A stretch of 41,644 nucleotides of DNA. Source: Candidatus Bipolaricaulota bacterium (lineage in GTDB: Bacteria; Bipolaricaulota; Bipolaricaulia; M55B111). The stretch is from positions 1 through 41,644 of the forward strand of contig JAGXLB010000006.1 of the NCBI GenBank assembly GCA_018334915.1, given 5' to 3'. Below the pieces are notes generated by a model that searched no databases, was not told where the DNA came from, and saw nothing but the letters and a program-made list of their open reading frames with translations. Below are positions 6,269-41,251 of this stretch, one piece after another. Position numbers and translations under genes: made by a program. Position 1 is the stretch's first letter, and each line of letters starts with the position of its first letter.

Positions 6269-7195
6269 TTACTCGAAAATATCTTTAATCGCGGAGATAT
6301 TCTCCCGGGCAAACTCTCTTCCGATTGAGACTGCCTTGTCGACTTCGTTGAAATCAAGCCAGTTTAACTGGTTTACCGGCGGGTTAAGGGTTAATAGCCG
6401 ACCGTCGAGCTCATCCTTAACAATGGAAGTTTTCAATCTTAAAATTTCATTTTTTCTTATTTCGCTAGATCTGTAAAATAATGAAAGGGGATTCTGATTC
6501 GGATTCGGTTCGAGTGACTTGCTTACGTCTACTGCTACCATGGACCCGGCACCCATCTTTAAAGCAGGTAAAACTGGAACGGTATCGACAATTCCTCCGT
6601 CGATCAGCTGGTACCCATTAAGTTTTACGGGTGGGATGAAACCGGGTATGGCTGAACTGGCAGCCGTGGCCCGGTAAACTTTTCCTTCTCTGATCAGTAT
6701 TTCTCTTCCATTGCACAGGTCAGTTGCCACTGCGGCATAACTAATCGGGAGTTCCGCTATGCTGGAGTTCTTCGTCATAAGCTTGAAAAATGTAAACAAA
6801 CGGGCCAACTTAACTGGCGGTTTCTTCGACTCCTTTTCTAACCTTTTTCTAATCCCTATCTCCTTCACCAGGGATTTACCTATTGCTTTTTCGAGTTCCC
6901 TTCTACTCTGACGGGAAATTTTCAGGATCCGGTTTACGTCCAAACGGTTGAGAACTTTAATCATTCCGTCGAGATTTGCCCTGTTTGCTACAGCGGCCCC
7001 GATAACCGAACCCATGCTGGTTCCAACCACCATGTCCGGCTCAAGTCCTGAGTCAAGTAGCACCTGAACAATCCCCAAATGGACGTAGCCCCTTGCCCCT
7101 CCTCCCCCTAGGACGAGAGCTATCTGGTCGGGGTTCGGGCGACAATCCTGATGGGGTCCGATGGTTGAAAAGTGAGCCTCGTGTTTCGTGTTGAT
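6269..7195 (-). CDS. Patatin-like phospholipase (RssA type), probable AUC start
   Basis: This is a cytosolic Ser/Asp-dyad lipid acyl hydrolase. The oxyanion motif GGGGARG lies just upstream of the first conventional start codon (TTG at 7078) and in the same frame. That TTG therefore cannot be the start. The nucleophile motif GTSMG and the catalytic DGG (LIDGGIVDTVPV) follow in order. The frame is open back to a TAA at 7301-7303 but contains no ATG or GTG, and no TTG before 7078. The best initiation signal is GGAGG at 7202-7206, six bases before an in-frame ATC at 7195-7193, giving 308 residues. A sequence error or frameshift is the alternative. TATAAT at 7308-7313 may be its -10 box. Confidence 0.85.
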   Translation of the reverse strand: MNTKHEAHFSTIGPHQDCRPNPDQIALVLGGGGARGYVHLGIVQVLLDSGLEPDMVVGTSMGSVIGAAVANRANLDGMIKVLNRLDVNRILKISRQSRRELEKAIGKSLVKEIGIRKRLEKESKKPPVKLARLFTFFKLMTKNSSIAELPISYAAVATDLCNGREILIREGKVYRATAASSAIPGFIPPVKLNGYQLIDGGIVDTVPVLPALKMGAGSMVAVDVSKSLEPNPNQNPLSLFYRSSEIRKNEILRLKTSIVKDELDGRLLTLNPPVNQLNWLDFNEVDKAVSIGREFARENISAIKDIFE

Positions 7196-7331
7196 ACTTA
7201 ACCTCCATAACTTTCTACTAATGATACTGTATGTGCGTCCGGGTTTCTGGGTCTGGTTTCCTCTTGACTCGAGGTAACTGTTCGGCCTGGATGAATAACC
7301 TTAAAATATTATAGGAAGATAAGTTCCCCGG

Positions 7332-7372
7332 AAAATAAAAAACCCGCAACGAGCTGGACGCTCGCTGCGGGT
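7332..7372 (-). terminator. Rho-independent terminator of groESL
   Basis: On the minus strand the stem ACCCGCA-G-CGAGC / GCTCG-T-TGCGGGT has a five-base loop and one mismatch (7342-7372). It is followed directly by TTTTTTATTTT (7332-7342). It lies 30 bases after the groEL stop codon. Confidence 0.95.
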
Positions 7373-7402: not shown

Positions 7403-9088
<1,686 letters not shown>

Positions 9089-38462: not shown

Positions 38463-39585
38463 CTGACAGCTCCTCCTCTATCCAGTTGAGCGCCGCGCCC
38501 AGTTTATTTTCCGCCCTTCGGGTGATCTCTTTCTTCGCTCCGGAAACTTTTTCCTTCAATTCCTTCCTTTCCTGATAGATTGTCTCCAGGTCCGACAGGT
38601 ACTCCGTGGCGTTTATCAGATTGTCCGGCTGCCAGATAGAGAAGTTATTGTCCTCGTCTAGGTCGTTCAGTTCTTCGATAAGGATATCCATCTTTGGATC
38701 GTAGCTAATACCCTGAACTGGAGTAACGCTCAGAAGTGAAAATATCAGGGCGTGCAACCTTCCGGCAATGACCAGATCAAGCCCCCCCATCATTTCTACA
38801 AGCTGAGCTGAAGAGAGGTGGTCGACGTCAATGATTTTGCAGGGGGCTTCTGTGGAAACCTGGAGATCGGTGTTAATATCCTCATCCGACAAAGAATTTG
38901 TGGAGAAAAGGACTACGTTGACGTCGAACTTTTTGTACAACATATCCAAACCGCTGGAGACAGCCCTCAGGACGTCAGATCGCCCTTCTACGTCATTTCT
39001 CAGTGCTGCTCCAACAATTTCCTTGTCCGGAGAATTTAGATACTCGTCCCTGTGGGCTCCGTTCCCGGAAAGCAGGAAAGCAAGGTCGTCGCCGACAATT
39101 ATTTTATCGTCTCCCACCCCGAATGATCTCAACAATTTGGCGCTTCGGTCGTCTCTGACGTGGAAACCTTTAATTCCGGATGTCGCACCTCTAAGTAAGA
39201 GCTCATTGTATTTCTTTTTTATCGGTCCAATTCCCTGACCGAATAAATAAGTTGGTACGGAGAGGATTCGAGCGAGGTAAAGCAGTGTCAAATAATACCA
39301 GAAGGAAGTAGAGCTCGTTCTATCCTGAAGTAGACCTCCACCTCCACTGATCAAAACCCCGCTATTTTTTAGGGTCCGGAATACGACCACGGGGTTCCAC
39401 CTATTGGCGGCCATCTCTCCGTGGATTTTTTCCGTTCTTTCAGGATTGTTGCTCAGGACGACAATTTCAGGTTCTTCCCCGAATCGATCTCTGAGAGAAG
39501 TGACAAGTGATTCCAGGATTGCTTCATCTCCCAGGTTTCCGAATCCGTAATAGCCCGATATTGTTATCCTTTTCGGAGATTCCAA
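38443..39585 (-). CDS. csaB: Polysaccharide pyruvyl transferase CsaB
   Basis: CsaB adds ketal-pyruvate to a cell-wall polymer, creating the ligand for SLH-domain proteins. The 380-residue GT-B-like protein begins with ITISGYYGFGNLGDEAIL and has LISGGGGLLQDRTS, FGQGIGPIKKKYN and the C-terminal LVIAGRLHALIFSL (Arg-Leu-His motif of the family). It starts at TTG 39585 with GGGGGTGA before it, and overlaps the DUF5693 gene by 22 bases. It suggests this cell has an S-layer or outer sheath held by SLH domains. Confidence 0.93.
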   Translation of the reverse strand: MESPKRITISGYYGFGNLGDEAILESLVTSLRDRFGEEPEIVVLSNNPERTEKIHGEMAANRWNPVVVFRTLKNSGVLISGGGGLLQDRTSSTSFWYYLTLLYLARILSVPTYLFGQGIGPIKKKYNELLLRGATSGIKGFHVRDDRSAKLLRSFGVGDDKIIVGDDLAFLLSGNGAHRDEYLNSPDKEIVGAALRNDVEGRSDVLRAVSSGLDMLYKKFDVNVVLFSTNSLSDEDINTDLQVSTEAPCKIIDVDHLSSAQLVEMMGGLDLVIAGRLHALIFSLLSVTPVQGISYDPKMDILIEELNDLDEDNNFSIWQPDNLINATEYLSDLETIYQERKELKEKVSGAKKEITRRAENKLGAALNWIEEELSGEGKTK

Positions 39586-41219
39586 ACGTATTCACCCCCG
39601 AGAATAACGGCAAGAATGATCCCTCCCAGGATTATCCCCCCTGCTAGACCGTTTCCCGTTCTAATTAAGGACATAATGAGGGGAGAGTGGATATGAGAGA
39701 AAGTGTTGATAATTGATATCTGACCTATAAATCCTAGCAACAGCAGGGCAATCTTGCAAAGATGAAACTTTTTTCCGTATCTACCGGCGAGATAAAGCCA
39801 GGCAATTAAGCTCGGATGGCCGAGAGCGAACTCCTTGAATCTGGGTCTTACGTACAGGGTGTTCTCGAGCCATCTTCTGATCGCGTTTTCCAGGTCCCCA
39901 CTCCTGAGAAAGGTGAAATTACCGCTCCTGAAGAGTAAAAAGAGGAAAAGCCCCAAAAGTGCTGCTCCGAGGAGACCGCTTCTGTAATTGAACTTTAACT
40001 CTGAAAAGCTGATTCCGTCTCGAGAAAGAGTCGCGAAAACCAGCAGAATCAACGGTAGAAATAGGGCCACTTTTACCCCTCGAAACTGCTGAAGTTTGAG
40101 CAAGAACGATTCGTCCAGGAGGGTGCTGGAGACTGCCAAGCCACCGATAGTCGAGAGGGCTGACATCCAGATTAGATCAAGGAAAGGACTCATCAGGCTC
40201 CGGTCGGGTCGAAACGACAATCCGTACTCCCTCAATAATTTATAACCGACTAGGGGGGCAGTGACTGCCAGGATAAGGGAAGAGGCCTGACGCGTAAGAG
40301 TTGGGTAAAGGGTAAGGCCCATAGTCCCTCCGACAATCGAGGCCAGTATCCAGAAAATTAGGGTAGAGTAAGAGCCCTGTCCAGGCCATAGAAACGGGAA
40401 TACGAGGCCGAAAGACGCCACAATTAGACCGAAAACCAACCAGCGCGATGACTCCACCCCATTGCCAGTTCCCCTGACAGCTCCGATAGGACCGATCCGG
40501 TAGCCGGATTTGGCCATTTCAGCCTGAATGGCATTCAGAGTATCTATGGTGGTATCCAGATTCTGGTTTAGTGGCAACCTGTATTCTATTACCCCGATGT
40601 TTCTTTCCTGGATAGCTCTACTGTATCTCGCCCGCTTTTCAGCAGGAGTAAGAGTTCCGACCTCCTTGTTGAAAACCCGGTGGAGCCTTACCCAATCCAG
40701 TCCTTGTTCGCTCACCAGTTTTTCAGTCGTTTCTCTGTTCCTGAATTCCACCGTCCCCAGAATAGTGTTGTTTTGTTTAAGCCAGTTTGTGAGGTAGAAA
40801 GGAAGATCCACTGCTCTTAAACCCCTTAAAACCACAAATTTTGGTCCGATCTCGCTCAAATAGTCAAGTATTTGTCGGTACTCCTTTTCCCCGGCCAGCT
40901 GTAGGTTCGATACCGCCACTGCCCGGGTAATTCCTTTTTTCTTTAGCTCATCTAATAGATCCGGTGGAACGAACCCCTGCTTGACCGCCAGATCGGTCCG
41001 GAATAGGACCAGATTATTACCGGACTTATTCAGTCTCTCGATTAGCCCCAGTTCCGTTTCCCCGGAAAGGGAACTCGCCCTCTTGATATCCTCGTACCTG
41101 GTCGCTACGGAGTATTTTTTGGTCGATAAGTCCCAGTTGACCCTTTTCGAGGTCTGGTAGCCTATCAGTATCAGCAGGATAATTATCAAAATTAACGTGA
41201 GTAATCTTGTAGTTTTAAT
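39564..41219 (-). CDS. DUF5693 membrane protein, probable AUU start
   Basis: The 551-residue integral membrane protein has an N-terminal anchor, then an extracytoplasmic domain of about 200 residues (RSGNNLVLFRTDLAV-like and FVVLRGLRAVDLPFYL segments). Eight or so transmembrane helices follow. It matches DUF5693, commonly next to csaB and thought to act in envelope biogenesis. The first conventional start, TTG 41189, would remove the basic residues of the anchor and has no ribosome site. The frame contains no ATG or GTG upstream. AAGGGG lies five bases before ATT at 41219-41217, which would give a normal (M)KTTRLLTLILI anchor. Confidence 0.85.
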   Translation of the reverse strand: MKTTRLLTLILIIILLILIGYQTSKRVNWDLSTKKYSVATRYEDIKRASSLSGETELGLIERLNKSGNNLVLFRTDLAVKQGFVPPDLLDELKKKGITRAVAVSNLQLAGEKEYRQILDYLSEIGPKFVVLRGLRAVDLPFYLTNWLKQNNTILGTVEFRNRETTEKLVSEQGLDWVRLHRVFNKEVGTLTPAEKRARYSRAIQERNIGVIEYRLPLNQNLDTTIDTLNAIQAEMAKSGYRIGPIGAVRGTGNGVESSRWLVFGLIVASFGLVFPFLWPGQGSYSTLIFWILASIVGGTMGLTLYPTLTRQASSLILAVTAPLVGYKLLREYGLSFRPDRSLMSPFLDLIWMSALSTIGGLAVSSTLLDESFLLKLQQFRGVKVALFLPLILLVFATLSRDGISFSELKFNYRSGLLGAALLGLFLFLLFRSGNFTFLRSGDLENAIRRWLENTLYVRPRFKEFALGHPSLIAWLYLAGRYGKKFHLCKIALLLLGFIGQISIINTFSHIHSPLIMSLIRTGNGLAGGIILGGIILAVILGGEYVWNLRKG

Positions 41220-41251
41220 AGTAGCCCCTTTTATTCTTTGAACTAGAGAAA

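Follow-up and report, generated by a model that had tools for sequence, protein, structure and literature searches.

In the 41,644-nucleotide stretch of Candidatus Bipolaricaulota DNA analysed here (the window), a patatin-like gene without a canonical start codon appears to be intact, and its translation very probably begins at the AUC at position 7195, placed by the Shine-Dalgarno (SD) sequence GGAGGU. The window belongs to a draft genome of 2.9 Mb (G000; 316 contigs, 84% complete), and its nearest relative is a separate assembly (G001), which contains the L001 sequence and carries the isolate name GSL_GSL3510_1. We read GSL as Great Salt Lake and the lineage as a little-known salt-lake one. 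The features of the patatin locus in the window are as follows.

6269..7195, minus strand: coding sequence of the patatin-like phospholipase from the proposed AUC, 308 amino acids plus stop (PF01734; orthologue with a matching start context in G001/L001)
7193..7195, minus strand: proposed start codon ATC (AUC), at a spacer of 6 from GGAGG; ATC also in G001; no canonical codon from the upstream stop to this ATC
7201..7206, minus strand: Shine-Dalgarno GGAGGT, read from the sequence; GGAGGTTAAG identical in G001
7088..7108, minus strand: GGGGARG oxyanion motif, before the first canonical codon, read from the sequence
7076..7078, minus strand: TTG, the first canonical in-frame codon, rejected as a start because it lies within the domain and is CTG in G001
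7206..7208, minus strand: ATG in another frame that overlaps the SD; G001 has this ATG too but does not keep its frame
7301..7303, minus strand: TAA, the in-frame stop that delimits the open frame, read from the sequence
7342..7372, minus strand: intrinsic terminator-like stem after groEL and upstream of the patatin-like gene (pattern match)

The open frame begins after the TAA at 7303-7301 and spans 343 codons (7300..6269). Residues 62-247 of this frame match PF01734 (E 3.5e-33; 115.9 bits against a gathering cut-off of 27.7), and the translation carries GGGGARG, GTSMG and IDGG. Patatin-like phospholipases are characterized by a G-rich oxyanion loop, a GXSXG motif and a DGG/DGA motif. The best NCBIfam match was NF007623 (RssA-type patatin-like phospholipase) at 118.5 bits, far under the model's cut-off of 272, and the RssA name is therefore withheld. 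A preliminary description of this DNA had stated that no ATG, GTG or TTG occurs between the upstream stop and GGGGARG, and that GGAGG is followed six bases later by ATC; both statements are correct, as are all of its coordinates. The GGAGG lies at 7206-7202 and the ATC at 7195-7193, whereas the earliest canonical codon of the frame, the TTG, is found 39 codons past the ATC and downstream of the oxyanion motif. Folding of the start region revealed nothing unusual (z of 2.37, 1.21, 0.48 and 0.32, none clearly stabler than shuffled sequences), and an Rfam scan of the same region gave no match at E up to 1. The groEL gene (7403-9085) is located upstream. In three loci from other genomes of the class (L089, L090 and L092), the stop preceding the patatin frame terminates a translation resembling the GroEL C-terminus, as it does in the window, and the groEL-patatin gene order may be conserved.

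The patatin protein shares 88% amino acid identity with its counterpart in G001 (85% by tblastn with L001) and 67–70% with those in L002-L004, all of them from Candidatus Bipolaricaulota assemblies; orthologues are present in all six genomes of the family (f1) that were searched. The comparison with orthologues proposed in the preliminary description revealed an identical SD and ATC in G001, a second species, where the same GGAGGTTAAGC-ATC precedes an intact patatin frame. The start context reads CCATGGAGGTTAAGC-ATC-CAGACAAAAAAAGAGGCTCAC in G001/L001 and TTATGGAGGTTAAGT-ATC-AACACGAAACACGAGGCTCAC in the window, the two having GGAGGTTAAG(T/C)ATC in common and zero indels in the start region. Upstream of the ATC the two genomes diverge, with 14, 7 and 6 identical bases per successive 20-base block going up. 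Within codons 1-27, the differences at codon positions 1/2/3 number 7/0/6 and 20 of the 27 residues agree, and within codons 101-300 they number 14/7/63; overall, 32% of the comparable third positions of the gene differ. A 36-base block past the start (GAGGCTCAC...CAGGAT; 7145-7180 on the minus strand of the window, 5088-5123 in L001) is identical, and neither a structure nor an Rfam family was found for it. Across the family, the start is AUC in two of six genomes, and the other apparent starts near the same place are TTG in G003 and G004 and ATG in G002 and G005. The match in G002 (G002:C14:4463-5319) falls into two pieces, of which the second has two TGA and one TAG codons, and a frameshift, a break or a misassembly may have affected this copy towards the 3' end.

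That no further AUH cases would be found genome-wide, an outcome considered in the preliminary description, is contradicted by conserved AUH starts in infC, gatA and a phosphoribosyltransferase-like gene. The infC gene has an AGGAGG- or GGAGG-type SD, six bases and ATC in all five family genomes in which it was read (G000, G001, G003, G004 and G005), and G002 gave no infC match. Outside those five, the start looks like ATC in G007 and G010 and is ATG in G006 (eight of 11 loci were read, five of them from the family, with L208-L210 left out). In G000 there is a TTG five codons upstream of the ATC, but it precedes the SD and lacks conservation. The gatA gene (TIGR00132, above cut-off) starts with ATT in G000 and with ATC in G001, G002, G003 and G005, so that AUH is found in five of the five family genomes with a match. 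In G001 and G003 the frame is closed by a stop eight codons upstream, and no canonical codon separates this stop from the start; the exceptions are a GTG in G002 and a TTG in G005, each only 2 bases past GGAGG, and a TTG in G000 that lies 18 codons up, before the SD. Among outgroup genomes, a canonical codon occurs near the aligned gatA start in 14 of 14 informative loci, a count that excludes L316 (partial), L318 (starts too far inside) and the secondary matches L319-L324.

The phosphoribosyltransferase-like gene (nicotinate/quinolinate type; PF02749 and PF01729) begins with ATT or ATC, preceded by a GGAGGT-type SD, in five of five genomes of the genus. A stop precedes the aligned AUH by 4-5 codons in G000, G002 and G003 with no canonical codon between, and in G001 the next canonical codon lies 37 codons on, inside the domain. 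The copy in G002 has one TAG within the match. Between 42% and 67% of the comparable third positions of this gene differ from G001, and for gatA and this gene together, which show AUH in all five genomes seen, the range is 42–72%. AUU and AUC are swapped at one and the same site between relatives in both genes. A TATAAT-like hexamer was observed just 5' of the SD near several AUH starts, in L205 (infC), L296 (phosphoribosyltransferase) and L260 (gatA); with such a position, the leaders would be very short.

Other AUH starts are less constant among relatives. The companion case named in the preliminary description, a DUF5693 gene, was confirmed as an ATT after AAAAGGGG, and the ATT is kept in one relative (G003). 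Its features are the following.

39564..41219, minus strand: DUF5693 coding sequence from the ATT at 41219-41217 (PF18949; ATT also in G003, ATG in G002 and G004)
41225..41232, minus strand: weak SD-like AAAAGGGG, 5 bases before the DUF5693 ATT, read from the sequence; same in G003

In G001 the DUF5693 locus is cut off. A DUF1028 gene starts with ATT in G001, ATC in G000 and ATG in G004. Candidates confined to a single genome include, in G000, genes for an ABC ATPase (L142), lysA (L225), a beta-lactamase-fold protein (L226) and a NosD-like beta-helix protein (L213), and, in G001, L290 and the weaker L274 and L286, in which a GTG and a TTG follow after 4 and 9 codons, respectively. In G003, the closest counterpart of the L142 ABC gene (L252) has an apparent CTG start after AGGAGG, with an in-frame stop just before the CTG and an overlapping ATG-TAA in another frame. 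As a conserved ATC case, murF (gene 507) was rejected: an aligned upstream ATG gives what we take to be the usual MurF N-terminus. Also left out, as ambiguous, were L128, L138, L230 and guaA, which could start either at an ATC or at a GTG three codons further.

The search for further such starts yielded conserved genes with SD and AUH, whereas the raw motif count showed no genome-wide excess: GGAGGN{5,7}ATH occurs 580+603 times (1183) in the 2.9-Mb genome versus 582+555 (1137) in a reversed control. Because chance makes the pattern common, an SD followed by ATH proves nothing by itself, and it is the conservation of the patatin SD and ATC and their placement at the onset of coding that raise them above chance. 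We surveyed genes called by codon usage for an SD at the coding onset without a canonical codon 3-16 bases on. When the SD was required to span 6 nt or more, this description applied to 10 of 646 genes in G000, five of them with AUH at a spacing of 5-9 (5/18 codon positions against a background inside genes of 47/810, P=0.003), and the respective numbers in G001 are 11 of 268 genes and six with AUH (6/17 against 18/415, P=5e-5); the two P values lack independence, as patatin and gatA contribute to both. With an SD of at least 5 nt, the enrichment was retained in G001 (7/29, P=0.0018) and was not significant in G000 (6/58, P=0.12).

Altogether, AUH-start candidates, which do not amount to a census, make up about 8 of 646 genes in G000 and 6-8 of 268 genes in G001, where the range reflects the two weak ones, L274 and L286. 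The G000 figure includes L226, called at the 5-nt cut-off, and two genes added by hand: infC, which was absent from the survey's calls on account of the TTG that precedes its SD, and DUF5693, which was missed because its SD is weak. Among 113 orthologue pairs between G000 and G001, 70 have a common canonical start and SD, and the conserved AUH pairs accepted are patatin, infC and gatA. As a control, the same procedure was applied to 300 kb of E. coli. It made two AUH calls in 235 genes, identified by their stop coordinates as pcnB and infC, which represents no rate because the stretches were picked to contain these two genes. The suggestion of the preliminary description that the organism tolerates such starts is supported both by GGAGG-N6-ATC with an intact frame in an independent relative and by the additional conserved cases.

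With respect to the initiation machinery, initiator tRNAs are marked by C1 and a GGG/CCC anticodon stem. Two CAU tRNA genes with these marks were found, and a single cluster (L231, 6202-7353) contains both of them together with a third CAU tRNA and tmRNA. Neither a changed initiator tRNA nor a special AUH decoder was seen in the 31 sources scanned, in which the sole GAT anticodon reported is that of tRNA-Ile, the draft being 84% complete. IF3 is represented by a full-length orthologue with both domains covered. The IF3 proteins of the family (L206, L202-L205) have Ala-Lys where E. coli and three outgroups of the class have Cys-Arg or Cys-Lys. We propose that the CAU initiator tRNA would read AUC with a third-position mismatch and insert fMet, the strong SD compensating for the near-cognate start codon. 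IF3 would discriminate against this mismatch, so that the patatin-like protein would be produced at a low level and its output would rise when IF3 is limiting. On balance, we lean towards IF3 control of the patatin-like gene, judging from the analogy with known IF3-repressed genes.

A rather unlikely alternative is that AUC initiation is real and has no regulatory role, drifted starts being tolerated because the SD is strong. The patatin, DUF5693 and DUF1028 genes, which alternate between AUH and canonical starts among relatives, are consistent with such drift, and because of this inconstancy regulation of the patatin-like gene stands less firmly than initiation at its AUC. However, gatA and the phosphoribosyltransferase-like gene keep AUH in five of five genomes despite deep third-position divergence, although AUG is only one substitution away, and for this reason we favour the maintenance of a weak start. 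The conservation pattern suggests that weak start codons are used by the cell to hold some genes down. More tentatively, it is possible that a few per cent of the genes of the family form a start-codon regulon, in which AUU or AUC behind strong SDs would be selected for weakness and the amount of free IF3 relative to 30S subunits would set the joint output; its proposed members are gatA, infC and the phosphoribosyltransferase-like, patatin-like, DUF5693 and DUF1028 genes.

The other explanations concern the AUC itself. Translation from the out-of-frame ATG at 7208 with a +1 shift into the patatin frame, by a programmed frameshift or with a leader peptide, is improbable. This ATG occurs in G001 as well, shortly upstream of the 36-base block, whose identity in the window and G001 conserves both frames over 12 codons. 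However, no evident SD-like motif precedes it, and its frame is closed by TAG TAG in G001 and runs for 51 codons in the window, leaving no common slip or stop site; nor was a comparable ATG seen at gatA, infC or the phosphoribosyltransferase-like gene. An indel joining the patatin frame to this ATG, as envisaged in the preliminary description, does not exist between the window and G001. Still less probable is a truncated protein whose translation begins inside the frame, at TTG 7078 or elsewhere. TTG starts are normal for the window's genome, where 128 of 645 genes have TTG as their best canonical codon (in a tally restricted to ATG, GTG and TTG, in which ATG starts far from their SD prevailed), but a start at 7078 would lose GGGGARG, has no SD before it and corresponds to CTG in G001.

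Sequence error and decay, the two other options of the preliminary description, are hardly credible, because G001 has the same SD and ATC, an intact frame and CTG in place of TTG 7078. Loss of an ATG or of the frame by sequencing or assembly error could be suspected in a draft of 316 contigs, but the same bases recur in G001, which was assembled separately and departs from the window at 32% of the comparable third positions, and gatA and the phosphoribosyltransferase-like gene have AUH in five assemblies each. A decaying pseudogene would explain the missing canonical start and has a parallel in the internal stops of the second G002 match, whereas the frame, intact in both the window and G001, encodes a full-length Patatin domain without stops, its changes in codons 101-300 are mostly at third positions (63/84) and orthologues occur in six of six f1 genomes.

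Initiation at such codons would have consequences for annotation: gene finders limited to ATG, GTG and TTG would truncate or lose such genes, and the patatin-like protein would be deprived of a catalytic motif in this way. Should IF3 gate the conserved AUH starts of gatA, the phosphoribosyltransferase-like gene and others, its regulon, so far a handful of genes per organism, could be catalogued by cross-genome comparison of start codons without experiments on the organism. In E. coli, the AUU starts of infC and pcnB are repressed by IF3. The genes described here resemble these two in having a near-cognate AUH codon with an SD and no canonical alternative, and infC of this lineage itself starts with AUC; they differ in that the targets include a patatin-like gene and several other non-infC genes, whose dependence on IF3 would follow by analogy. 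Our search of the open-access literature, judged from listings, found no genome with many AUH-start genes, and it found nothing related on start codons in Bipolaricaulota.

In Streptomyces, the GTC start of sigR behind a long SD (AGGAGGTG) is repressed by IF3, as determined by experiment, and this non-canonical start is conserved in the genus and has been misannotated to canonical codons (PMC5472188). Both sigR and the genes of this lineage have a non-canonical start after an extensive SD, the codon being GTC in sigR and AUH here (PMC5472188). In Staphylococcus aureus, infC, cvfC1, ccpN and citZ have conserved AUA or AUU starts with an extended SD, and in poor medium reporters with such starts reach about 10% of the expression obtained with AUG (PMC13009471). 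The combination of a strong SD with a conserved AUH start is the same in both cases, whereas four sites are described there, in contrast to about 8 of 646 and 6-8 of 268 candidates here, which come from sequence alone (PMC13009471). AUH starts are of a kind already known, and it is their apparent number and conservation in this lineage that would be new, if confirmed.
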